DNA of 64,000 nt from Bacteroidia bacterium (GTDB lineage: Bacteria; Bacteroidota; Ignavibacteria; SZUA-365): assembly GCA_027493955.1 (NCBI GenBank), contig JAOSJT010000001.1:4388552-4452551 (forward strand), written 5' to 3'. Positions 29,343-52,666 of the stretch are shown here, in pieces. Positions within the stretch are counted from its first letter, which is position 1. Each line of letters starts with the position of its first letter. The notes under the pieces were generated by a model that searched no databases, was not told where the DNA came from, and saw nothing but the letters and a program-made list of their open reading frames with translations. Position numbers and translations under genes: made by a program.

Positions 29343-30104
29343 ATGCCGAGATGGAAGTATAGATTTACGACTATCGCCGTGCTGACCGTTGTCGGTGCGG
29401 CTCTGTCATTTGTCGGGCTGCGAAGCGAGACGAGAGTGCGCAGCAGCGCCTTCGGGATGCAAGCCGTGGTTTCGTCACAAGATGCTGGAGCTGAAACGTT
29501 CATGCCTGCATCCGTCCGAAGGGACTCCCTCGCGCTCACCGTGTTGAACGACGGAGAACGGTATGTCCTGCATTGGCTTGTACCGCCGGCACTGAGCTGT
29601 ATGTCCTTTATCATCGAACGCAGACTATCGGAGACGTACAGCTTTACCTCCGACACGCGCTGGATCGAAATCGGGATGGAACCCGGGATGTGCAATCTGT
29701 TCGAAGCCGTGCCGTATTCTTTTCCCGATCGCAGTACCACAACCGGGATGAAGGGGATCATGCAGTACCGCTTGTCCGTCCGAACGGAAGGCGGCGGGGA
29801 ACTTGTCAGTTACTCAGAGGTCATTACGCTGTCAGTTCCCGATCAACTGGAAATCCGCGATATGTATCCCCAGCCGGCGTCCATGCAGGTGCAGATGTCT
29901 TTTCTCACGTCTGACGCGGATCCTGTCACGGTGCGGATCTTTGACATGACCGGTACCGAACTGCGTAGAACAGCATTTTCCGTACCCCGGCCAGGCGTGC
30001 AACACCATATACTGGATGTGTCTTCCCTTCCGGCAGGGATCTATGTCTGTGCGTCGGAATCGCGGCAATCGATTGCGGTGCGCACATTCCGCGTTGTTCG
30101 ATGA
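29343..30104 (+). CDS. Secreted protein with C-terminal T9SS sorting domain
   Basis: 253 residues. A signal peptide (about residues 1-24, after MPRWKYR) is followed by a fibronectin-like beta domain (about 60-160, with YVLHWLVPP and YSEVITL) and a Por/T9SS sorting domain (about 168-253, IRDMYPQPASMQVQMSF, VRIFDMTGTEL, LPAGIYVC). It is predicted to be exported and fixed at the surface. The catalytic or binding role is unknown. It follows ftsZ by 244 bases, which include a small hairpin GGACGTT/AACGTCC (29279-29307). Confidence 0.75.
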   Translation: MPRWKYRFTTIAVLTVVGAALSFVGLRSETRVRSSAFGMQAVVSSQDAGAETFMPASVRRDSLALTVLNDGERYVLHWLVPPALSCMSFIIERRLSETYSFTSDTRWIEIGMEPGMCNLFEAVPYSFPDRSTTTGMKGIMQYRLSVRTEGGGELVSYSEVITLSVPDQLEIRDMYPQPASMQVQMSFLTSDADPVTVRIFDMTGTELRRTAFSVPRPGVQHHILDVSSLPAGIYVCASESRQSIAVRTFRVVR

Positions 30105-30702
30105 TGAAACCTGAACGGTAATATTTCCACACATCCGGATAGCAACGCCACGACTGTTACCCGACAGAGATATGAGGAGCCTGCTATCAGCCCCGGGTCG
30201 CTGTGCACAGGCAAACGATGGTTCTTCGTCATGGAATGAATGAATGCAGGCCGACTTTGGCATAGCATAGCATGATCGCTGTGGGCTGATCACGCAAGCA
30301 GACCTCGGACAGCGCCGGCTTTGGCAGGGTATGTACGCAAAGCTCCCGTTGCCATCAAGGATCGACGTGGCCCATTCGGCGCAGGCGCTGCGGTCAATGA
30401 AAGTATCTCTCTGTAACTCTGTCGTTACAAAAAATCTTGCGCTGGAAACCTTGTTCGCGCCGGGAGGCGCCCATGCTACCGGAGGCAGCTGAATTGGTCA
30501 CAGGAACACTACCCATCGTAGGATGATATGCAAAACCGGGACAGCGTGATCGCACGTGTGCCTACACCCGTCGGCAATCCGGATTGACACTATCGTTCAT
30601 TGACAATCTCGTTATGGTCCCCCTTGCCCGTTTCCGAAATAATGGCCAACTTCCATCGTGATGTCCACCCGTCTCACCATTCACGATGTGTGGTACTGTC
30701 CA
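30105..30702. other. Long intergenic region without recognised genes
   Basis: About 600 bases. No open frame here resembles a known protein on either strand, and no RNA or repeat was recognised. A TTGACA-like box lies at 30585, but no matching -10 follows at the right distance. It may hold the decayed remains of a gene. Confidence 0.4.
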
Positions 30703-31119
30703 ATGAAGCTCTCCGATGTGATCTCCCGAAATGCGAACATTTGTGTACTGCTCTTGCTGCTGCTTGTCGGCGTCAGTGCGTTCGCTGCCCCTGCAACCAG
30801 GCCTTCGCCCCTATTCCAGAGATCGGAGGTCAGCAACTGTGATGGTACGCGGCTTTCGCCGATGATCATCGCCGATGATGTTGTGAATGATGTGGCGAAG
30901 CAGGATACGCAACAGGAGAGGAAGCGCTGCAAGGCCGTCACGCAAAAGGGCACGCAATGCAAGCGGGATGCGAAGGAAGGCAAGGAGTATTGCTGGCAGC
31001 ATGAAACGGTCCCCGCCGGGGATCGCTGCAAGGCCATCACGAAAAAGGGGACGCAATGCTCGCGAAAGGCGAAAACCGCAGACGGATATTGTACCCAGCA
31101 CGCGAAGATGCGGGAGTGA
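30703..31119 (+). CDS. Small secreted protein with two DUF5763-like Cys/His motifs
   Basis: 138 residues from ATG 30703; the frame is open to 30658, but this start gives the better signal peptide (residues ~12-30, ICVLLLLLLVGVSAFA). The mature part carries two copies of a C-x7-C-x9or10-C-x2-H motif: RCKAVTQKGTQCKRDA..EYCWQH (about 77-99) and RCKAITKKGTQCSRKA..GYCTQH (about 110-133). The pattern matches the DUF5763-type small zinc-finger-like module found in many bacteria. Export of such a motif is unusual. No partner is evident, and the gene is isolated. Confidence 0.6.
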   Translation: MKLSDVISRNANICVLLLLLLVGVSAFAAPATRPSPLFQRSEVSNCDGTRLSPMIIADDVVNDVAKQDTQQERKRCKAVTQKGTQCKRDAKEGKEYCWQHETVPAGDRCKAITKKGTQCSRKAKTADGYCTQHAKMRE

Positions 31120-31387: not shown

Positions 31388-34378
31388 ATGCAAAACCGGC
31401 GCATTGTTGTGTTGCTTTCGGCTGTACTCGGCCTCATGGCAACTGTCTGTCAGGCACAGAACACCATCACATTTACGGCAACGGATGCGCGCAGCGCGGC
31501 ATCGATGACGCTCGACAGCATCCATATTCTCAACCTCAGCCGTGGGCGCGACACCACAATTACCGGTACCACCTTCCCCGTCGACTGGCCGCTGACAACC
31601 GGGGTCGGCGAGATTGCGCGGCCCGGAGGGCTCTCCATCAGCGGGAATTACCCAAACTCCTTCGGTGACGCGACGGCCTTTTCCGTCGGCACATCCGAGG
31701 TTGGAGTTTTAAGCATCGCAGTGTTTGGCATGAACGGAACGCGCGTAGCTGAGTACCGGCAGTCACTGCAGCCTGGTCAACATGAGTTCGCCTTTGCTGC
31801 GGGCGGTTTGCCGGACGGTGTGTATTTCGCGACGGCGTCGTTGAATGGGCAGACATCGACGCTGAAGCTGCTGAAGAGCGGGCGATCGGCCGGTGGAAAC
31901 CCGCAAATCGTTTACAGGAACTGGAGTGCGGCAGTCGCTGCCCCGCTAAGGAGAACAGCCGCCGCTGATCTCTATACCTACATCGGTTATGCTGCCGGAT
32001 ATTTCCCGGCTGTACTCGCGGAGGTGCTTCCGGCAGCGGGCCGCAGCTACGAATTCTCCCTGCTGCCGCTCACCAGCCGCGGTATCAGCACTGGCGCGAC
32101 GGTGCCTGTATACGAGATGGATGTACCCACCACGGGCGGAACAGTCAACGTGAGCACAGAGGACTGTCCTATCAAGGGGATGGAGATCACGGTTCCCGAT
32201 TCCGCTTTCGCCGAGCACCGCACCTTCTCCATATCCTATGCCCAGGTGCAGAGTCACAGCTACGGAGCGAACTTCAATCCCGTCTCACCGATGATTGTCA
32301 TCAGCAACGGCGGCGGTTACTCCGACGAACCGATGATCATCAAGATCCCGGTGAAAGTTCCGTCCGACGAATTCGCGATGGCGTTTTTGTACAACGAGCT
32401 TACCGGCACGTTGGAAGGAATGCCCATCCTCGCCGCGGACGCGTCCTCCATTACCGTTGCGACACGCCACTTTGCCACGTCTCAGATATCCACCTTCGCG
32501 CCGGACGTTCAGCGCGCATCCAAGCGTACCGCAGACGCGTTCGCGAATATTATCATATCGTCTATCAGGGAATCGTCGCTGAAGGGACAGCAGATTCTCA
32601 CAACCGGTTTTACACCGGGCAAGGATGACTGGGAGTTCAGCAATCGGGGTTCGGTTATCGCATCGGGCGGCCATTGTGCCGGACAATCGCTTTCAATGAT
32701 GTGGTACTACTATGAGAAAAAGCTCCATGGAGCATCGCAGTTGTTTCACTCGCTCGACCGTCTGTTCATTCCATCCACCAATGGAGATTCCCTGTGGATG
32801 GACAATCCGAAGGGCTACAAATTTGCCTCGATCATTCAAAAAGAGTACGGGAAGTTCAACGGATGGATGGCGGACCAGCTCAGGCAGTTGCGGGATAGCT
32901 CTGTACATGCCATCGGGTGGCGGGCCTTCTTGTATTCCATGCTTCTCACAGGCGAGCCGCAGTATGTGTCACTGAGAGCGAGGGACACCGACGGTTCATA
33001 CTTCGGCCATGCGATTGTCGCGCACAAAATATCGGTAACGGAGAAGAAACTGTTCGTAACCGACCCGAATTATCCGGGTCAGGAGCGATCCATCCTGTTC
33101 TCGGATCCATACTTTGCGCCGTACGATACAAAGCAGAATGCCAATGAGCCGGCATCGGAACAATATCCATGGATTGCCTATATCGCAAAATCATGTCTTA
33201 TTAACTGGTCCACCATAACTGCGCGTTATGCGGAGGTACAGGCGGGGACAATCGGCACAGTCTCTCCACACAGTTTCCCACAAGTGCGTCTCATCGACAA
33301 TTCGGAAAATGCGGTCATTTCCGCTTCGACCGACTATGTATCGAACCGCGACACTCTCGTCATTACTGCGCACAATGCACAAACCGCCTTCGCCGTGTAT
33401 GATGCGACATCGGGGGAGCGGCTCGTTCCCGGAGCAAAGTCGCCGTATGGGCTCGTGTACGATAGCGTTCTCGTGTTAAAGCCCGGAGTTAATGAATTCG
33501 GAGTGTACTTTGCACAGAAGGTCGATAATTCCTGGGTGTATGCTGATTATCAGTGGTTGACGGTGATATACAATCAGCTCACTCCACACGTTGCGACCAT
33601 CAGTCCCACCCAGGGTACGGCGGGCGACGTTCTGACTATCAACGGTTCGAATTTCGGAAATGATCGAAGCAAGGGCGAAGTACATCTGTACACGACATCC
33701 CGCGACATGATCCTCAGAAATGTTGTATCGTGGGATACGAACAGAATCGTCGTCACCGTTCCCGATGATGCGATCAGCGGAAAAGTGTATGTCAAAGTGA
33801 ACGGACTTGAGAGCGAGTACCGCGTCAACAGCGGGCACCTGCAATTCACCTTCAAACCCGGCCCCGCAATTATCCAATCCGTTACACCTGACCATGGATA
33901 CGGAGGAGACCAGATAACGATAAAGGGCAAGCGTTTCGGGAAAGGTCTTACCGGCAGTAAAATCGTCATCAATAATTATGATCTCTTCCCGAATAATCCT
34001 TCCGAAATCCCTTCCTGGACGGATTCGCTGATCACGATTATCCTCCCCAAAACCTGCATCGGGGGCGATCTTCAAATGGTGAACTGGTCCGACGAGTCGA
34101 AGAGCAGCAACGTCGTGCAGTTTACTATGGACCAGCCCGTCATATCCGGGTACGGCCCCGCCTCGGGACCTGATCAGACCCTCGTTACAATTAGCGGAAA
34201 TTTTCTCGGAGAGAGCGCTCTGTGGACCGGTACAGGTGTGACCGTCGGCGGTGTCAAACCGATTCTGGACAACTGGTCGCGAACGGCGGTCTCTTTCTAT
34301 GCGAGTCAGAGTGGCGAAATCGTGCTGACCGTCTGCGGTAAATCAATCGTCGTCGGAAATTTCACGAAAACCCCGTAG
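31388..34378 (+). CDS. Large secreted protein: sorting-fold domain, papain-like cysteine peptidase region, three TIG domains
   Basis: 996 residues. Signal peptide 1-24 (VCQAQ). Residues ~85-163 have the fold pattern of a T9SS sorting domain (GNYPNSFGDATAF, VFGMNGTRV, GLPDGVYFATA), but near the N-terminus rather than at the end. Residues ~400-570 look like a papain-like (C39/C1-type) peptidase: Cys430 in GGHCAGQSLSMMWYY, His541 in GHAIVAHKI, and Asp559/Asn561 in VTDPNYPG. Three IPT/TIG Ig-like domains follow (about 732-824, 825-915, 916-995). The order Cys...His...Asp/Asn is seen. The enzyme family assignment is inference from these motifs. It is likely a surface protease or adhesin, with no near neighbours in the same transcript. 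Confidence 0.65.
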   Translation: MQNRRIVVLLSAVLGLMATVCQAQNTITFTATDARSAASMTLDSIHILNLSRGRDTTITGTTFPVDWPLTTGVGEIARPGGLSISGNYPNSFGDATAFSVGTSEVGVLSIAVFGMNGTRVAEYRQSLQPGQHEFAFAAGGLPDGVYFATASLNGQTSTLKLLKSGRSAGGNPQIVYRNWSAAVAAPLRRTAAADLYTYIGYAAGYFPAVLAEVLPAAGRSYEFSLLPLTSRGISTGATVPVYEMDVPTTGGTVNVSTEDCPIKGMEITVPDSAFAEHRTFSISYAQVQSHSYGANFNPVSPMIVISNGGGYSDEPMIIKIPVKVPSDEFAMAFLYNELTGTLEGMPILAADASSITVATRHFATSQISTFAPDVQRASKRTADAFANIIISSIRESSLKGQQILTTGFTPGKDDWEFSNRGSVIASGGHCAGQSLSMMWYYYEKKLHGASQLFHSLDRLFIPSTNGDSLWMDNPKGYKFASIIQKEYGKFNGWMADQLRQLRDSSVHAIGWRAFLYSMLLTGEPQYVSLRARDTDGSYFGHAIVAHKISVTEKKLFVTDPNYPGQERSILFSDPYFAPYDTKQNANEPASEQYPWIAYIAKSCLINWSTITARYAEVQAGTIGTVSPHSFPQVRLIDNSENAVISASTDYVSNRDTLVITAHNAQTAFAVYDATSGERLVPGAKSPYGLVYDSVLVLKPGVNEFGVYFAQKVDNSWVYADYQWLTVIYNQLTPHVATISPTQGTAGDVLTINGSNFGNDRSKGEVHLYTTSRDMILRNVVSWDTNRIVVTVPDDAISGKVYVKVNGLESEYRVNSGHLQFTFKPGPAIIQSVTPDHGYGGDQITIKGKRFGKGLTGSKIVINNYDLFPNNPSEIPSWTDSLITIILPKTCIGGDLQMVNWSDESKSSNVVQFTMDQPVISGYGPASGPDQTLVTISGNFLGESALWTGTGVTVGGVKPILDNWSRTAVSFYASQSGEIVLTVCGKSIVVGNFTKTP

Positions 34379-43178: not shown

Positions 43179-46100
43179 CTACAACCTGGTTACGCGCTTC
43201 ACCAGCACGGTTTCTCCAAACATCGCCACGAGATAGTACACTCCGGCACCGCGGGCGTGGAGAGAGTGCGTAAAATCCGCAGCGCCATCAGGCAGCACAC
43301 CTGTGTGAATCACATCCGCTCGGCCAAGTACATCGTACAGCGCCAGTGTAACGGTTAGATTCCTGGTGCCGGTGAGTGCGATGCGCAGCAGGTCGGTCGC
43401 CGGTTCGGGCCAGACATGCAGCGATGCGCGTTCTGCTACCGGCGGCGTGGCGTCCACGTCGAGCACCGTCACGTTGAAGGGATCCGAGAGCGCTGAGCAG
43501 CCTTCGGCATTGGTGACCTGAACCTGATACACGCCGGTCTGTCTTGCAACGTGCAGCGGTCCGGTGGCGCCTGGTATAGCTGTGCTGTTCAGATACCACT
43601 GGTAGGCATGTGCTGTGTCGCTTCGCAGCGCATCCCCGAGGCGGCGTATGACGGGCTTCGCGGGTGCGGGCTTCATAATGACGTCCGTGGTGTCCGAAGC
43701 GCCCCAGCAGCCCAGTTCGTTGCGCACCCGCACGGAATACCGACCGGCCGCCGTCACCACGATGCTTTCCGTACTCGCTCCTGTACTCCACTCGTATGCG
43801 GGATAGCTCTTGTCGGTCCACAAGTGGACGGTCTCGCCTTTGCAGATCGCCACCGGACCACCCGGAGTAATCACCGGTTGTGGACTATTGTGTACCGATA
43901 CATGCACCGTATCGGATATCCCGAGTGCTCCATCAGTGCGTCGGACCGTGCAAAAGTACTGCCCGCTCGTACGAACCACGAGCATGCGATTCTTCGCTCC
44001 GGATGACCAGGCATAGCTGGCGTAGCCGGCTCCGGCGTCGAGAGTGACGGAGTCGCCCGAACAAAAACGCAGGGAGTCGTCGTATGCCAGCTCGAAACGG
44101 AACGACGCCTCGGGAAGACCCGGTATGCGAATCGGTATCTCGCATTTCGAGGAATCCGTATTTGATGCAAAACACCAAACCGTCACAGTGTAGTGTTTCT
44201 CCCCGGTTGTCGGCGCATGCTGAAGCATCCATTCGGCGCTGCCTTCCTGCCCGGGATTCAGCAGTGAGGGAAGGATACGTTTCGTGAATCGGTCCGGCGC
44301 GTCCGGTGCCGCCAGGGTCAGCTCCGTTGGCAGTACGATGGAGGCACGGAGGGTGTCCGTCCGAGAACCGCCGGTGTTCCGAGCGGTAACGGTGACGGGA
44401 AAAGGCATGGGATTATAGCGAAGATACGTCGTGTCCGCGGTTATTGCGGGGGCATCGAGAGTACACTCGAGCATCGGACCTGCCTGCGGGATAAACACTT
44501 TATGGCAGCAAATGACATCGGGATAATTATCGAAGCTGCTGCGAATACAGATTTCGATGGAATCGCCCTGTGTCCGCTTTTTGGCCGCCAACTGCCAGTT
44601 CACTTCCGCGAACATCCCCGGAGCGATGTCCGCCGGCGATACAAGCTGTGTCGTGCTGACTGGCGAGACCAGTCGCACGTCATGGGTATCCACGATGATG
44701 GTACATCGCGCATTGCGCAGCGTCGTGTCGCCGATATTGTCGCAGCGTCCGGTGACGATAAACGGGTTGGGCTGATAGTCGCGCAGCTTCCGATCCCACT
44801 GCAGGCGCTTCGTACCGTTGATATCGCAGAAGGCCTGAGGTGCCTTTGCATTGATGCAAATACTCCCGGTTTCAATAACCGGAATGAAACAGCCCTGTTC
44901 AAATCGGGGATACGCAGCACGGATGTCGCAACATGCGGTATCAGACCGGTTCGCAGCTTTGAACGTCATGTTCAGCAACAGACCACCGCCATGAACAAGC
45001 TTGCGTGCGGTAACCTGTATGAGGGCGCCTGCGGGATGAGGCGTCACCATGATCGGAGCACCCTCGAGCAGGGAGCCCGTCGGCGTGCTCACACCTTTGA
45101 GCTGTACGCAGGAAGTGTCGTATTCCAGTGTGAATTGCAACGGGTAGAACATCTCGCCGTTGATTGGTGAAATGAGGTTGAGGGGCAGCGTGATATCGGC
45201 GCCACTTTTCCCGGTTGCATCGCCGATCTCCAAATTCAGATTCTTGAACGTGGACGAATCCAGGGGAGCGCGATACGTTTTCGTCTTGGTGTCGCTCCCC
45301 CCACAGAAATCCTTCAACTGCAGATCTACCGTCCGTAGAGCGCCATCCGCGCACTCGCGCTCATAGGTGATGATGCACTCCTGAAAGCTCTGGCGTATGA
45401 TGGTGAATATTTCCTGATAGATCGCGGCGAGCTGTCCGGCATTCGGTGTCTGGTAATACTTCCCGCCGGTAAGCGAGGCGATCATTTGCAATTCCACCGC
45501 ATTGACACTGCTGCCGAGAGCGACAGTAAACACATTGATACGGTGGCGATTCGCCAGTGCAATAATCTCCGCAGGCGTGCGCGTCGAACCTCCGTCGCCG
45601 CCGTCTGTCAGCAGTATAACAGCGCGACATTGGTTCACCCCGTTGTTGATCAGTTCGAGCAGTCCAAAGTACCCGCCGTCCCAGACTGCCGTCAAACCAC
45701 CTGCAGGAAGGGCATCTACGGCGGCGTGCAGCCATTGCTTATTCGTCGTCATCTGCTGCTGTACCGTCACGACGGAGGTAAACCAAATTACCGCCGCCTC
45801 GTCCATAACGCCGTCCATCAGATCAATAAATGCGTGGCCCGCCAGCTTGGCGCCGGCATTACCGGAACCTATCATCGAACCGGATGCGTCGAACACCAGT
45901 GCTACGGATTTTGCACAGGGTTTGGTGGGATCGGGACACCACACCGTGAAATCTTTGACCTCGACACCATTCTCATAGATGCGAAAATCCTGCTTCGACA
46001 TATTGTACGCCGGATTGCCGTCACAGCCGACCGTCACATACAACTCGATGGTCGGCCAGTTTACCGTCACCCGTTTGAAGGTGAGGTTCGGCTGCGCCTG

Positions 46101-46190
46101 AAGCCCGGCCGTTGGCATCACGTGGCAGATAAGGATGAGCAGCGCGACAGCGCTCCATGTGTGAGCAGGTACGTTAGATAACCTTTTCAT
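43179..46190 (-). CDS. Secreted VWA-domain protein A with Ig-like repeats and T9SS tail
   Basis: 1003 residues from ATG 46190, preceded by AAAGGAGTCTGTC; the open frame further upstream is translated repeat. Signal peptide 1-33 (GLQAQ). The von Willebrand A domain (about residues 95-290) has a complete MIDAS: DASGS at 101-105, a threonine in GLTAVWDGG and an aspartate in LLTDGGD. It is followed by Cys-rich strands, beta domains (about 300-740), and three CHU-like Ig repeats of the form CSGDSVTLDAGAGYASYAWS (about 750-915). A T9SS sorting domain (about 925-1003, HVWPEPATDLLRI, YDVLGRADVI, GAGVYYLVA) ends the protein. A secreted, metal-dependent adhesin is the likely role. It is one of three paralogues. 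Confidence 0.85.
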   Translation of the reverse strand: MKRLSNVPAHTWSAVALLILICHVMPTAGLQAQPNLTFKRVTVNWPTIELYVTVGCDGNPAYNMSKQDFRIYENGVEVKDFTVWCPDPTKPCAKSVALVFDASGSMIGSGNAGAKLAGHAFIDLMDGVMDEAAVIWFTSVVTVQQQMTTNKQWLHAAVDALPAGGLTAVWDGGYFGLLELINNGVNQCRAVILLTDGGDGGSTRTPAEIIALANRHRINVFTVALGSSVNAVELQMIASLTGGKYYQTPNAGQLAAIYQEIFTIIRQSFQECIITYERECADGALRTVDLQLKDFCGGSDTKTKTYRAPLDSSTFKNLNLEIGDATGKSGADITLPLNLISPINGEMFYPLQFTLEYDTSCVQLKGVSTPTGSLLEGAPIMVTPHPAGALIQVTARKLVHGGGLLLNMTFKAANRSDTACCDIRAAYPRFEQGCFIPVIETGSICINAKAPQAFCDINGTKRLQWDRKLRDYQPNPFIVTGRCDNIGDTTLRNARCTIIVDTHDVRLVSPVSTTQLVSPADIAPGMFAEVNWQLAAKKRTQGDSIEICIRSSFDNYPDVICCHKVFIPQAGPMLECTLDAPAITADTTYLRYNPMPFPVTVTARNTGGSRTDTLRASIVLPTELTLAAPDAPDRFTKRILPSLLNPGQEGSAEWMLQHAPTTGEKHYTVTVWCFASNTDSSKCEIPIRIPGLPEASFRFELAYDDSLRFCSGDSVTLDAGAGYASYAWSSGAKNRMLVVRTSGQYFCTVRRTDGALGISDTVHVSVHNSPQPVITPGGPVAICKGETVHLWTDKSYPAYEWSTGASTESIVVTAAGRYSVRVRNELGCWGASDTTDVIMKPAPAKPVIRRLGDALRSDTAHAYQWYLNSTAIPGATGPLHVARQTGVYQVQVTNAEGCSALSDPFNVTVLDVDATPPVAERASLHVWPEPATDLLRIALTGTRNLTVTLALYDVLGRADVIHTGVLPDGAADFTHSLHARGAGVYYLVAMFGETVLVKRVTRL

Positions 46191-46411
46191 GACAGACTCC
46201 TTTGCAAAACACAGAACGCAGAACACGCAGAAAAAGCAGAACACGCAGAAGAAGAGAAGAGGCCGAAAGGCTATCTTCTCGTCGTGTTTGTGGTACATCG
46301 TACGTAGTACGTCGTAAGTCGTCCCGCCTGCGCTCTCATGAACTGCCGTTTGTGCGATGGTCCTTTGATGCTTCGGCGGGCAGGAAATCGTAGGTCGTAA
46401 ATCGTCACTCG
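46191..46411. repeat. Repeat-rich spacer between VWA genes A and B
   Basis: Holds two short tandem families: ACRCAGA-like units at 46208-46262 (AACACAG, AACGCAG, then variants, with GAAGAAGAGAAGAGG) and CGTMARW-like 7-mers at 46299-46320 and 46389-46416 (CGTAGGT, CGTAAAT, CGTCACT, CGTTACA). The last unit runs into the stop of gene B. The same order of repeats occurs in the spacer between genes B and C, so spacer and gene were duplicated together. Confidence 0.8.
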
Positions 46412-49400
46412 TTACAGTTTCGTGATGCGCTTTACCAGTACGGTTTCCGGCAGTACGGCGACGAAATAGTACACCCCCGCTTTCCGTCCGGAGAGGGAAT
46501 ACTGAAATTCACCGCGCTCATCGGTGCTCCGTGCTTCGTGAATGACTTCCGAGCGGCCGAGTACATCGAAGAGATACAGGGTAAACGGCTGCGTGCCGAT
46601 GTCGTTGATGCGGATGCGCAGCACATCGCTTGCCGGCTCGGGCCAGGCGTGGAGTGTCGGTGCGCCAGCGAGTGGGGGATTGCCGGCGACGCCGAGTACG
46701 GTGACGTCGTATATGTCGGATACCACCGAGCAACCACGCGAACTCGTCACCCGAACCTGATACGACCCGGGTTGTGTCACAAGAAGCGCGGGCTGCGTCG
46801 CTCCGGGTATCTCAACGCCATTGCGGAACCACTGGCATCGGTAGCCCTCCGGTACGCTCAACACGTCGCCCGTCCGTCGAATCACCGGCTTGTCGGGCTT
46901 GAGGAAACTGATGACGGTCACCGGATCGGATTGACCCCAGCAACCGTGACTGTCGCGCACGCGCACAAAGTATTTGCCTTCGATGCGGACAACGAGTTCG
47001 GCCGTGGTCGCGCCGATGTTCCAGAGGTACTCCTCGTAACTGCCGTCCACACCGAGCACGACCGAATCGCCGACACAGAACCAGAGTGTGCCGCCGGGAG
47101 TGATCATGGGCTTGGGAGCGGGACGCACGCTCACGTGCAGTGTGTCGGAGCGTCCGATAAGTCCGTCGGAACGTCGGACAACACAGAAATAGGACCCGGC
47201 GTTTTTCACTGCGATCTGCTGTGTCTGTTGTCCATGAGACCAGTTGTAGGTCAGATACCCGCTGCCGGCATCGAGAATCACAGAATCACCCTGGCAGATC
47301 TCGAGCGGTCCGGATGCTGTCAGCCGTGTGCTGAAGGTTGGCGGCGGCAATCCGGGTATGCGCACATTGACGGTGCAGACGGTCGTGTCCTGTCCCGCAG
47401 CCCAGCTCCTGGCGGTCAGCGTGTATGACTTCTCCGATGAGATAATCGGATGCTGAAGCATCCAGTTCACACCCCCGCTCTGCCGCGGAGCGAGAGTCGC
47501 GGGCAGGAGCTGCTTTGTATAGTTTCCGGGCGTCTCCGAAGGCGCTAATTCGAATTCCGGAGGCAGTTGCAGCGATGTCCACACGGTGTCGCTCTGAGTG
47601 CCACCGTTGTTCGTCACCGCCACGCTCAATGGAAAGGGCATTGGTGTATAGCGTACGGCGGCGGTGTCCGCAACGATCTGTGGCACAGATACGGCGCATG
47701 AAAGAACCGTACCCGCCTGTGAAACGACGATGCGAACGCAGCAGGTGACGTCGGGGTGATAGTCGAAGCTGCCGCGTATGCAGAGTTCGATGGTGTCTTC
47801 GGACGTCCGGGGTTTGGCCGCGACCTGCCAGCTTACGGTGGCGAACATCCCCGGATCGATATGTGGCGGGGAGGGAGTCTGTGTGTCCGTACTCGGCGAA
47901 AGCAGCTCGATGTCGTCTGCATCATAGAGGATGCGGAAACGTGCGTTTGCTGCCGTAGCGTCGCCGGTATTATCGAAGCGCCCCGTGATGGTAAAGGGAT
48001 TCTGCTGGTATTCCTTGCTGTCCTGTCGCCAGTCGAGTCGGGGTGGAGCCGTGACGGAGCAGGATATGGTCGGGAGAGTGGGAGAGAGACATACACGTCC
48101 GGTATCCATTATCGGAATGAAGCAACCCTGCGAGAATCCCGCATTGATGGGGCGTATATCCCGGCACAGCGTATCGCTGCGCTGTTGCGTGGAGAACGCC
48201 AGGTTCATCAGGCGTCCGTAGCCATTCACCAGAACAGGGGCCGTGCTTTCTATTGTGACACCTCCGGTCACGGGCGTCGCAGTTATCGGGACGCCATCCA
48301 GCAGCGATCCAGGCGGAGCGGTTACAGATTTGAATTGAATGATGGAGGTATCGTATGTAAGCGTGTAACGCAGCGGATAGAAGTTGTTGCCGTGAATACT
48401 TGTGCGGAGATTGAGCGGCAGGGTGAAATCGTCGCCATGTCTGGCGAAAACCTCGCCCAGATCGAGGTGGAGGGGGGAAAATGTTGTGCTGTCCAGCGGT
48501 GCGCGAAAGGACTTCGTTTTCGTATCCGAGCCATTACAGTAATCCCGCAATTGCAGCTCGACGTTGCGCAGGCCGCCATCCGCGCATTGGGCGTCATAGG
48601 TGATCATGCACTCCTGAAAGTGTTGCGCGAGCAGTGTGCCGATCTCTACATACGCGCCGACAAGCTGCGAGGCAGTCGGGACGTAATAGTATCTGCCCCC
48701 GGTGAGCAGCGCGATAAGCTCCAGCTCCACGCTGTTGATGCTCGAGCCCAGGCCGATGGTAAACACACGGATGCGGTGCCGGTTTGCCAGCGCGATGATT
48801 TCCGCCGGCTGCCGCGAGGATGAATTGTCGCCTCCATCCGTCATCAGTATCACCGCGCGGACCGGATTCAGCCCATTGTTGATCAGCTCGATCAAACCAG
48901 CATAGCCGCCGTCCCACACCGCCGTCCCACCACTCGCCGGCAGTGCGTCCACGGCCGAGTGCAGCATCGGTTTATTGCTCGTCATCTGCTGATACACTGT
49001 CACCACGTGCGTGAACCAGATGATCGATGCCTCGTCGACTACACCATCCATGAGGTCAATGAAACCGTGCCCGGCTTGCTTTGCGGCCGCGTTGCCGGCG
49101 CCCATCATCGAACCGGACGCATCGAATACGAGCGCCACGGAAAAGGAGGATCGTACCGTGGGATCAGGGCACCAGAGCTGAAAATTCGGAACTTCCACAT
49201 TGTTCTCGAACACGCGAAAGTCCTGCGCCGACACGGTGAAATCAAGTGTGCTGTCGCAACTCGCCGAGAAGTACAGTTCAATGGTCGGCCAATTCACACC
49301 GATGCGTTTGAAATTCAGCGCCGGCTGACCGTGCATCGTCACGAGCGGGGCGCACAAACCGATGAGAAGCATACACACGGATATCCGTCGTGCTGTAGAA

Positions 49401-49423
49401 CAGAAACTGCCGGACCTCTCCAT
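46412..49423 (-). CDS. Secreted VWA-domain protein B with Ig-like repeats and T9SS tail
   Basis: 1003 residues from ATG 49423 (GTG 49426 is in frame just upstream). Same plan as protein A: signal peptide (about residues 1-32, ending MHGQ), VWA domain with DASGS at 101-105, SGGTAVWDGG and LMTDGGD (about 95-290), beta domains, Ig repeats of the type CQGDSVILDAGSGYLTYNWS, and a sorting tail (HAWPEPASDVLRI, YLFDVLGRSEVI, KAGVYYFVAV) ending KRITKL. It is about two-thirds identical to A over the VWA region by eye. A canonical sigma-70-like promoter lies 40 bases upstream of its start. Product expected at the surface. Confidence 0.85.
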   Translation of the reverse strand: MERSGSFCSTARRISVCMLLIGLCAPLVTMHGQPALNFKRIGVNWPTIELYFSASCDSTLDFTVSAQDFRVFENNVEVPNFQLWCPDPTVRSSFSVALVFDASGSMMGAGNAAAKQAGHGFIDLMDGVVDEASIIWFTHVVTVYQQMTSNKPMLHSAVDALPASGGTAVWDGGYAGLIELINNGLNPVRAVILMTDGGDNSSSRQPAEIIALANRHRIRVFTIGLGSSINSVELELIALLTGGRYYYVPTASQLVGAYVEIGTLLAQHFQECMITYDAQCADGGLRNVELQLRDYCNGSDTKTKSFRAPLDSTTFSPLHLDLGEVFARHGDDFTLPLNLRTSIHGNNFYPLRYTLTYDTSIIQFKSVTAPPGSLLDGVPITATPVTGGVTIESTAPVLVNGYGRLMNLAFSTQQRSDTLCRDIRPINAGFSQGCFIPIMDTGRVCLSPTLPTISCSVTAPPRLDWRQDSKEYQQNPFTITGRFDNTGDATAANARFRILYDADDIELLSPSTDTQTPSPPHIDPGMFATVSWQVAAKPRTSEDTIELCIRGSFDYHPDVTCCVRIVVSQAGTVLSCAVSVPQIVADTAAVRYTPMPFPLSVAVTNNGGTQSDTVWTSLQLPPEFELAPSETPGNYTKQLLPATLAPRQSGGVNWMLQHPIISSEKSYTLTARSWAAGQDTTVCTVNVRIPGLPPPTFSTRLTASGPLEICQGDSVILDAGSGYLTYNWSHGQQTQQIAVKNAGSYFCVVRRSDGLIGRSDTLHVSVRPAPKPMITPGGTLWFCVGDSVVLGVDGSYEEYLWNIGATTAELVVRIEGKYFVRVRDSHGCWGQSDPVTVISFLKPDKPVIRRTGDVLSVPEGYRCQWFRNGVEIPGATQPALLVTQPGSYQVRVTSSRGCSVVSDIYDVTVLGVAGNPPLAGAPTLHAWPEPASDVLRIRINDIGTQPFTLYLFDVLGRSEVIHEARSTDERGEFQYSLSGRKAGVYYFVAVLPETVLVKRITKL

Positions 49424-49462
49424 CACGTTCTCCTTGGCGAATCAGAAGATATTATGACAACA

Positions 49463-49491
49463 TTGTAGGGAAAATGTCCTTCAATGTCAAG
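49463..49491 (-). promoter_or_regulatory. Promoter of VWA gene B
   Basis: On the minus strand, TTGACA (49491-49486) is followed after exactly 17 bases by TACAAT (49468-49463). This is a canonical -35/-10 pair. The transcript would begin near 49455, about 30 bases before the ATG at 49423. It partly overlaps the start of the ACRCAGA repeat. Confidence 0.75.
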
Positions 49492-49582
49492 ACCACAGAA
49501 GACACAGAAAAAACAGAACACGGAACGCAGAACGCAGAACACACAGAAAAAACAGAACACGCAGAAGAAGAGAAGAGGCAGA
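49490..49582. repeat. ACRCAGA-type short repeats upstream of VWA gene B
   Basis: Seven-base units CAGAACA, CGGAACG, CAGAACG, CAGAACA and related AACACAG/AAAAACAG blocks, closing in GAAGAAGAGAAGAGG, match the segment at 46208-46262. A translated frame on the minus strand (FFCVFCFFCVFC-like) is an artefact of the repeat. Confidence 0.8.
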
Positions 49583-49621
49583 AAGGGTCTCTCTTCAATG
49601 CGTTTGTGGGACATCAACAAT

Positions 49622-49670
49622 CGTCAAACGTAAGTCGTCAAACGTAAGTCGTCAATCGTAAATCGTTACG
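49622..49670. repeat. Seven-unit heptamer array running into the end of VWA gene C
   Basis: Units CGTCAAA, CGTAAGT, CGTCAAA, CGTAAGT, CGTCAAT, CGTAAAT, CGTTACG in strict 7-base phase. The gene C stop (minus strand, 49654-49652) lies within the fifth unit, and the last codons of gene C are made of repeat. Confidence 0.85.
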
Positions 49671-52666
49671 CGTTTCATCAGCACAGTCTCACGCAGCAGG
49701 GCCACGAGGTAATACACGCCGGGAACGCGGCCCTGGACGGAGCAGGTAAAACTCGCGCCGCCGTCGGGCAGCACACCGCTGTGAATCAACTCCGACCGGC
49801 CAAGCATGTCGTACAGAGCTACAGTGACGGGTTGATTTCCCGTATCCGCGAGCTCGATGCGCAGAATATCGGTCGCGGGTTCCGGCCAGACGTGCAGCAG
49901 GGGACCCGTTGTAGCCGGCGGGACATCATCGGTGTCCAGCACAGTGACGTCGAACGGGTCCGACAGCGCCGAGCAGCCGTTCATAAAGCGCACACGCAAC
50001 TGATATCTTCCGGTATTTTTTATCTTGATCACGCTGTACCCCGAATCGGGGAGAAGCACGCCATCGCGATACCAGTAGAACCCGCCGATGTCGCCCTGGG
50101 CAATAAGCCAGTCGAGATTACGGCGTATTCCGGGTTTGGACGGAACGGTTTTTGTGGTGACAATCACCGTATCGGAATACCCCTCGCAGTCATGACTGCT
50201 GCGCACCGTAGCGTAAAATGCGCCTGCCGAATGCACAGTGATGATCTGCTCCGTCGCTCCGTTGCTCCAAAGATAGCTCATGTAACCGCCGCCTGCATCG
50301 AGTTGCACGGAATCGTTCTCGCACATCGGAAGCGATCCATGCACAGCGATGCGTGGCGAAGGTGCGTCAATTGCCGTTACCCTCACCGTGTCCGAAATAC
50401 CGATGCGTCCGTCGCTGTGCTCCACGTTGCAGTAATAATTTCCACCTCGCTTTACGGTCAGGAGTCGATCGCGTGCACCGTTGGACCAGCGGTAAGTGGC
50501 GTAGCCCGCTCCTGCATCCAGCAAAACCGAGTCGCCCTCGCAGAATAGCGTGGATCCCAGAGCTGTGAGCGTAAAAGGGAAGGTCGCGACAGGGAGGCCC
50601 GGAATGCGTACAGCGACGGCGCAGTGCTTCGAGTCGGAATTTGCGGTACGTATCAATACCGATACGATGTATTCTCTGTCTGTATTGCTGCGCGGATGCC
50701 GCAGTTGCCATGTGACTTTTGCCGTTTCGTGTGCTCCCAACGTCGGCGGGGAGAGCAGTTTTCTGTAGGAATCGGGCGCATCAGGTCCGGCCAGATCGAG
50801 TTCCATCGGCACGTCTATTGTCGCCCATACGGAATCCGTGCGGGAAGGCCCGAGATTCGTTGCCTCGAGGGTTACCGGGAAGGGCATAGGCGTATATCGC
50901 ACATTCGCACTGTCGGCGGCGACCTCCGTTGCGGACAGCCGGCAGTCAAGGATGGGGTCCATTCGCGGGACATATACCTTCGTGCAACAAACGACATCGG
51001 GATGATTGTCGAATCGCGCCGTGATGCATATCCGCGTTGTATCACCTTCTGTTCGGGGGATGGCTGTCAGGGGCCAGTTGACGTTTTCGAACGAACTCGC
51101 GGCGATGATGCCGGTGCTTCCCGGTTTTGTATCGGTACCCGGGAAATACAACCGAACGTCTGCAGTGTCGTAGGTGATTGTGTAGCGTGCTTGCTTCGCA
51201 TCGCTGTCGCCACGATTGGAAAAGTGCGCGAGTACCGTGAAGGGATTCGGCGAGTAGTCAGGGTTTCCTCTTTCCCAGTCGAGACTGCTCGGAGCACTGA
51301 TATCACAATGGATGATCGGCGTTCCGGGGGCGATGCAGATACGACCGTCCGCTATTACCGGGATGAAGCAACCCTGTTCGAATGTGGCGGCTACGGCTTT
51401 CACCTCCGTACACGCCGTATCCGGAACAATTTTCGTCCTGAAATGGAGATCGAGTAGAGTACCCCCCTGTGTAAGCAGCTTCGGCGTGGTTGTCCGTATC
51501 GTTGCACCGTCAGCCAAGGGCGTCCACGATACGGGTACCCCGGCCAGCAAGGTCGTGTCGGATGCCGTCACGTTGTCTAGCTCCACCACAGCGGTGTCGA
51601 AGACGACGGAGAACTGCATGGGATAGAACATCACCACGTCTGCGGGTGCGAGCAGACGCAACGGAACGGTCATTTCCATCCCTGCGCCACGGATCGAATG
51701 CTCCAAAGCCATGTATAGCATGGAAAACGTCGAAGAATCCATCGACGCCTTGAACGTCGTCGTTTCGGAAAGTGAAGTACCACACACATCGCTTACCTGC
51801 ACTTCAATGGTGCGATGCGCTCCGTCCATGCAAGGACTGGTATAGGAAATTCTGCACTCCTGAAATCCCTGAAAGATGATGGTCGAGATTTCCATATAAA
51901 TGGCGGCCAACTGGCCTGCATTCGGTGTCTGATAGTATCGGCCACCCGTTGCATCCGCGATGAACTCCAGGGAACCGGAATTGATTGCTGTTCCGAGACC
52001 GATCGTGAAAACACGGATTCGGTGTCGCTGCGCAAGAGCGACCACTTCCTCCGGTGTACGTGTGGACGAGGCATCGCCCCCATCGGTCAGCAAGATCACC
52101 GCCCGGCATGGATTCGTCGCGTTGTTGATGAGTTCGATCAATCCGCCATAGGCACCGTCCCATGCCGCCGTGCTTCCCGTGGCGGGCAACACGTCAACGG
52201 CGGAGTGTAAAAGTGTCCTGTCGCGGGTCATCGATTGCATGAGGGTGACATCGGAATTGAACCAGAGCACGGCGGCTTCGTCGACCTTCCCGTCCAGAAG
52301 ATCGACGAACGCGTGACCGGCTTGTTTCGAACCGAGGTTTCCGCTTCCCGCCATAGAGCCGGATGCGTCGAAAACCAAGGCCACCGATACGGCGCAGCGT
52401 ACGTTCGGGTCGGGGCACCACAGGTCGGATGGGACCATCGGTACCCCGTTTTCAGTGATGCGAAATTGTTGCAACGTTGCGTCGTACACCGGCATGCCAT
52501 CGCAAGTGAGCCGATAGAAGACCTCAACCTTCGGTCCGTTGACAATTAAGTTCCTGACGGTAAACCGTGGTTGTGCCTGAACCGTCGTTCCCGATACCAG
52601 AAACAGCAACAGAAATACAGGAAGCGAGAGGGGTTTGAAACGGAAATTGGGTGCTGTGCTTGTCAT
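49652..52666 (-). CDS. Secreted VWA-domain protein C with Ig-like repeats and T9SS tail
   Basis: 1004 residues from ATG 52666, preceded by GGAGAGAGGATTGA. Signal peptide 1-31 (TTVQAQ). The VWA domain (about residues 94-290) has DASGS at 100-104, GSTAAWDGA and LLTDGGD. Beta domains, three Ig repeats (CEGDSVLLDAGAGYATYRWS and copies), then a sorting tail (HVWPEPATDILRI, YDMLGRSELI, VPGVYYLVAL). It ends KRVTIYD, where A and B end KRVTRL and KRITKL. The last codons come from a heptamer array, so the original end appears to have been replaced. First gene of the three, likely with its own promoter. Confidence 0.85.
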   Translation of the reverse strand: MTSTAPNFRFKPLSLPVFLLLFLVSGTTVQAQPRFTVRNLIVNGPKVEVFYRLTCDGMPVYDATLQQFRITENGVPMVPSDLWCPDPNVRCAVSVALVFDASGSMAGSGNLGSKQAGHAFVDLLDGKVDEAAVLWFNSDVTLMQSMTRDRTLLHSAVDVLPATGSTAAWDGAYGGLIELINNATNPCRAVILLTDGGDASSTRTPEEVVALAQRHRIRVFTIGLGTAINSGSLEFIADATGGRYYQTPNAGQLAAIYMEISTIIFQGFQECRISYTSPCMDGAHRTIEVQVSDVCGTSLSETTTFKASMDSSTFSMLYMALEHSIRGAGMEMTVPLRLLAPADVVMFYPMQFSVVFDTAVVELDNVTASDTTLLAGVPVSWTPLADGATIRTTTPKLLTQGGTLLDLHFRTKIVPDTACTEVKAVAATFEQGCFIPVIADGRICIAPGTPIIHCDISAPSSLDWERGNPDYSPNPFTVLAHFSNRGDSDAKQARYTITYDTADVRLYFPGTDTKPGSTGIIAASSFENVNWPLTAIPRTEGDTTRICITARFDNHPDVVCCTKVYVPRMDPILDCRLSATEVAADSANVRYTPMPFPVTLEATNLGPSRTDSVWATIDVPMELDLAGPDAPDSYRKLLSPPTLGAHETAKVTWQLRHPRSNTDREYIVSVLIRTANSDSKHCAVAVRIPGLPVATFPFTLTALGSTLFCEGDSVLLDAGAGYATYRWSNGARDRLLTVKRGGNYYCNVEHSDGRIGISDTVRVTAIDAPSPRIAVHGSLPMCENDSVQLDAGGGYMSYLWSNGATEQIITVHSAGAFYATVRSSHDCEGYSDTVIVTTKTVPSKPGIRRNLDWLIAQGDIGGFYWYRDGVLLPDSGYSVIKIKNTGRYQLRVRFMNGCSALSDPFDVTVLDTDDVPPATTGPLLHVWPEPATDILRIELADTGNQPVTVALYDMLGRSELIHSGVLPDGGASFTCSVQGRVPGVYYLVALLRETVLMKRVTIYD

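Follow-up and report, generated by a model that had tools for sequence, protein, structure and literature searches.

The open reading frame at positions 31388-34378 of the window, the whole stretch of 64,000 nucleotides that was analysed, raises the question of what kind of protein carries a sorting fold near its N-terminus and TIG domains at its end, and what such a protein could do. A preliminary description had proposed a secreted papain-like protease candidate in a domain context that it did not recognise as any described family. The frame starts with ATG on the forward strand, its coordinates are exact and it encodes 996 amino acids; the genome consists of one contig of 5.24 Mb. The product is probably a Sec-exported cysteine peptidase with a papain fold, belonging to an undescribed family of the envelope. 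Its parts follow in the order signal peptide, N-terminal module (N-module), ZU5/GAIN-like domain, papain-like domain, beta domain and three TIG domains:

31388..34378 (+), whole ORF, 996 aa; colinear relative L118, models
31388..31456 (+), type I signal peptide, residues 1-23; sequence, alignment A3
31457..31639 (+), first beta half of the N-module, residues 24-84; model m4e9536c0a8bc, alignment A3
31640..31876 (+), homologue of the T9SS type A sorting domain, residues 85-163; TIGR04183, matches to the mirolase CTD (8qb1) and the PorU CTD
31877..32083 (+), second beta half of the N-module, residues 164-232; alignment A3, model
32084..32578 (+), ZU5/GAIN/FIIND-fold domain, residues 233-397; VIA-align, Foldseek
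32579..33307 (+), papain-like cysteine peptidase domain, residues 398-640; structural match over 400-602
32675..32677 (+), Cys430, predicted nucleophile; conserved in 35/37, first residue of a helix by DSSP (core 203-216)
33008..33010 (+), His541, predicted general base; conserved in 35/37, in a strand by DSSP (core 311-322)
33062..33064 (+), Asp559, predicted third catalytic residue; conserved in 37/37, just past a strand (core 327-331)
33308..33583 (+), beta-sandwich domain, residues 641-732; conserved across the core family, model
33584..34375 (+), three TIG/IPT domains, residues 733-821, about 822-920 and about 921-996, the last two boundaries being approximate; Pfam PF01833

The proposed secretion agrees with the type I signal peptide found over residues 1-23, and the Pfam scan returned the three TIG domains at the end as three stretches (PF01833, E 5e-16). 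The C-terminus is formed by a TIG domain, not by a sorting domain.

The core of the protein (residues 228-735, 508 residues) was modelled with AlphaFold2 from 37 aligned relatives, with a pLDDT of 90.1 and a pTM of 0.90, and in this confident model the region taken for a protease was indeed papain-like. The best PDB alignments of residues 400-602 in VIA-align were those with staphopains and interpain A (Z 9.2), followed by xylellain (7.4), TDE0362 (7.1), IdeC (6.7) and AvrRpt2 (6.6); these matches come from the VIA re-alignment and have moderate Z scores, Foldseek alone returning only ZU5 folds below E 0.001. Cys430, His541, Asp559 and Asn561 sit at the residue numbers given for them in the preliminary description. 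A wide separation of the catalytic residues, named there as what would speak against a protease, was not found in the model: the central helix begins with Cys430, His541 is part of a strand and Asp559 comes just past the next strand, all three at the places of the catalytic triad. Of the 37 homologues, 35 have Cys430 and 35 have His541, the same two rows lacking both. The third residue had been left as Asp559 or Asn561. Of these, Asp559 is the better candidate, being invariant (37/37) in the core alignment, while Asn561, two residues further on, is kept in 36/37. The papain-like fold, with conserved Cys, His and Asn/Asp in this order at the catalytic places, places the domain in clan CA.

An oxyanion Gln about six residues before the Cys is typical of family C1, not of every clan CA family. 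No such Gln is present six residues before Cys430, residue 424 being an Ile; Asn419, which is invariant in the core alignment, may stand in for it. Profile and PDB sequence searches gave no significant match to a known peptidase family or PDB chain. Families C1, C10, C39, C47, C66 and C70 produced no significant profile match, the best being C39_2 at E 0.03 and C70 at E 0.09 in some members, and the weak Pfam matches across the core family were to the papain-fold families C70, C39_2 and Guanylate_cyc_2. The papain assignment gains in confidence because residue placement, conservation and the moderate-Z fold matches agree.

A papain fold by itself leaves the reaction unfixed, and the fold is also used by amidases, deamidases and transferases. 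That the protein is such a non-peptidase enzyme, acting on envelope or external molecules, is unlikely: the solved structures that align best with residues 400-602 are mostly endopeptidases (staphopain, interpain A, xylellain, IdeC), although Guanylate_cyc_2 (E 0.007) is the best of the weak Pfam matches across the family and the relative L118 has a weak match (E 0.087) to Gln_amidase, a papain-fold deamidase. Dead forms do exist in the family, as in two members (L040:4177-5550 and L071:47-1240), which are candidate pseudoenzymes, Asp559 is retained and the catalytic Cys and His are both gone. The 996-aa protein, however, has the full triad and the surrounding motif, like 35/37, and there is very little probability that it is a catalytically dead binding protein.

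In front of the peptidase domain, residues 237-395 have the fold of the ZU5/GAIN superfamily, with VIA-align Z scores of 12.8 for ankyrin-B ZU5, 10.9 for CD97 GAIN and 9.7 for the NLRP1 complex; Foldseek matched the core model to ZU5 folds at E 4e-6 to 1e-4. This domain had not been mentioned in the preliminary description, nor had the lipoprotein background of the family or the larger N-terminal module that encloses the sorting fold. Bacterial ZU5 domains have been called self-processing autopeptidases (Zhang et al. 2012, PMC3482391), and the fold resembles the self-cleaving GAIN and FIIND domains, so that cleavage here might release or activate the papain domain. His361-Phe362 lies near the expected site, ahead of a disordered loop (371-381) and the last strand of the domain (385-394) in the model. 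The motif of the ZU5 autopeptidases, a CxH region and an HF/S or HL/T site, is nevertheless degenerate. The residue after His361-Phe362 is Ala (HFA), which leaves the 996-aa protein without the self-cleavage nucleophile, His followed by Ser, Thr or Cys occurs at this site in 15/37 relatives, and the Cys of CxH is missing, with Thr in its place in nearly all of them. For these reasons self-cleavage is not supported by the sequence, and release or activation of the papain domain in this way is judged highly unlikely.

The sorting-type fold near the N-terminus was recovered with TIGR04183, which matched residues 88-163 above its curated cut-off (25.2 bits against 23, E 1.2e-5, NCBIfam), while the Pfam family PF18962 remained below its own (14.8 against 27). 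In the structure comparison of residues 85-163, the mirolase CTD (8qb1) aligned at Z 8.7 with 27% identity and the PorU CTD region at Z 9.3. Complement proteins with Ig-like folds reach scores as high as these CTDs, so the claim of homology rests on the match to TIGR04183. Beta strands flank the fold on both sides and make up with it the N-module of about 200 residues (model m4e9536c0a8bc, pLDDT 85, pTM 0.55). The two outer halves may form one domain, the pTM of this model being low. Residue 24 is a Gln in all six N-module sequences of alignment A3, and the signal peptide is predicted to be cleaved in front of it, which agrees with the Q-rule (PMC5837995) on proteins cut by signal peptidase I.

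By description, T9SS signals sit at the C-terminus. The fold of a type A CTD is present in the 996-aa protein at residues 85-163 of 996, away from the C-terminal position of type A cargo. About 140-150 related sorting-domain copies occur in the same genome, and among 34 loci examined two have complete N-modules at the N-terminus, whereas in the other 32 (of roughly 150 genome copies) the domain reaches the C-terminus. This 32/32 fits the early suggestion that the displaced domain may have a role other than C-terminal targeting. The genome encodes SprA and PorU, both above cut-off, and three stretches known from type A CTDs, NYPN, LPDGVY and KLLK, are still present in the sorting copy, features that would be expected if the domain were still a working T9SS signal that carried the protein across the outer membrane from an internal CTD. 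This is improbable, since the position is at odds with all 32 other copies checked, the NYPN stretch is lost in the N-module relatives L117 and L118, and the fold is linked at both ends to other parts of the protein. As it is joined at both ends, PorU-type cleavage and C-terminal attachment would be unworkable in the way they act on normal cargo, and a structural or retention domain is most likely, as in PorU and PorZ, whose CTDs stay uncleaved and bind PorV/PorQ (PMC10202324). The sorting domain is probably an anchor or structural domain and not a cleavable signal.

The second complete N-module of the genome lies in a protein of about 1168 aa with one TIG domain and a C-terminal FISUMP domain (L041:4299-7802, G000:C1:880298). 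N-terminal modules were considered as a common trait of FISUMP proteins and were found in none of the 30 FISUMP loci sampled. In another N-module protein (L140, G331:C275) the C-terminal part appears rhodanese-like by eye.

The failure of the preliminary description to place the protein in a described family was well founded: no family in Pfam or NCBIfam covers the core (228-735), which is an undescribed and unannotated family of bacterial surface proteins, most of them with a lipid anchor. Core profile matches were obtained in 34 of 391 genomes of the class (about 9%) and in 14 of 395 genomes of the phylum. Outside the class there were one strong (G190) and one weak match (G286). Relatives of residues 385-640 were present in 11/296 phylum genomes, own genome counted, and a single-sequence search of genome contigs returned one relative, from an Ignavibacteriales MAG, so that the host may be Ignavibacteria-like. 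The weak match outside the class, L074 (G286:C40), is a distant relative that matches nothing in Pfam or NCBIfam; its Cys and His/DPN motifs are similar and hint at a wider superfamily.

Out of 38 family rows, 31 are of the lipobox type (four lipoboxes were assigned by eye), six have the N-module and one has neither. In nearly all relatives the lipobox directly precedes the ZU5/GAIN domain. The 996-aa protein has a type I signal peptide instead of a lipobox, and in the six N-module rows, from four genera of the same bacterial family, this peptide and the module of about 200 residues replace the lipobox. A complete N-module was found at E 1e-20 in this genome only among 296 phylum genomes, twice, and in 6/12 genomes of the same bacterial family. 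The relative L118 (989 aa), from another genus of that family, is colinear over its full length with the same domain order, including the tail of three TIG domains; segment by segment the identity is 24-47%, with its maximum in the last TIG. With this colinear relative and the 140-150 related sorting domains, the architecture of the frame is not due to chance.

The core tree requires two changes between lipobox and N-module, and a single clade of the N-module rows is disfavoured (AU p 0.016); the branch of the 996-aa protein is long and its placement has a support of 84/83 only. Given the colinearity of L118, the N-module may instead have had a single origin, followed by recombination of the core.

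Other genes in the window include one for a small exported protein of 253 aa whose sorting domain is of the regular C-terminal kind (29343-30104, +; PF18962 above cut-off), located just downstream of ftsZ, and one for a protein of 153 aa (30658-31119, +) with two short Cys/His repeat motifs (DUF5763), a signal-like N-terminus and an NCBIfam match of the GvpO N-terminal type. Three consecutive proteins of about 1000 aa at 43179-52666 (-) have VWA domains, parts with an Ig-like character and tails that resemble sorting domains, and are probably tandem paralogues. Across 37 loci no neighbour gene is conserved except those of sorting-domain proteins, so the gene context offers no substrate. A toxin-immunity or inhibitor partner was dismissed, no neighbour family beyond the sorting-domain proteins being conserved at these 37 loci, as were viral relatives, none of which appeared in two scans; the BFVD fold search brought up nothing but matches to generic beta proteins.

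The fold, the placement of the triad, the background of the family and the location of the sorting fold within the protein were computed; from the whole we infer activity, substrate, cellular location and the anchoring role. Most likely the protein is a peptidase attached to the envelope, in which the N-module stands in for the lipid anchor. Once exported by Sec and cut in front of Gln24, it would be retained at the envelope, probably on the outer surface, where the N-module would do what the lipid anchor does in the relatives, the TIG domains would act as spacers or binders, and Cys430, His541 and Asp559 would cleave peptide bonds of a substrate. A more specific form of this idea is possible and rather doubtful, namely that the N-module is an exchangeable envelope anchor, with a type A sorting fold set in a beta domain that keeps the protein at the outer membrane by way of PorV-like barrels, and that it replaced the lipid anchor of an ancestral lipoprotein. 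With this locus, a little-studied branch of the Bacteroidota gains an unannotated family of papain-fold enzymes of the envelope. The locus also provides a natural example of a T9SS sorting fold at the N-terminus, in the place of a lipobox, and makes it testable whether such a fold can serve for retention when it is not C-terminal.

Staphopains (C47) and interpain A (C10) are papain-like bacterial peptidases. They share with the 996-aa protein the fold over residues 400-602 at Z 9.2, the Cys that opens the central helix, and the His and third residue on successive strands. They differ in having Asn instead of Asp as third residue, in an identity of 10-13% with no match at the sequence level, and in that the 996-aa protein has a ZU5/GAIN domain in front and no conserved adjoining inhibitor gene. 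The IdeS/Mac-1 group also has the papain fold (Z 6.7-7.1), at 6-14% identity; the 996-aa protein showed neither a match to the Mac family nor a recognised counterpart of the oxyanion Lys of this group. Its member TDE0362 of Treponema denticola combines envelope Ig-like domains and a papain domain in one protein (PMC11833123). ZU5 autopeptidase domains occur in polymorphic toxins and in surface proteins of bacteria (Zhang et al. 2012). Common to these and to the 996-aa protein is a fold of the ZU5 superfamily that lies near the N-terminus of a large envelope protein and adjoins an enzyme domain, whereas the self-cleavage motif of the 996-aa protein is degenerate and no RHS repeats or toxin cassette were seen. 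T9SS type A CTD proteins (TIGR04183) are alike in the homologous Ig-like sorting fold, the signal peptide and the T9SS encoded in the genome, but carry the domain at the C-terminus and not, as here, at residues 85-163 within a larger module. For an uncleaved CTD as a retention domain of the outer membrane, PorU and PorZ are the precedent, theirs being C-terminal (PMC10202324).
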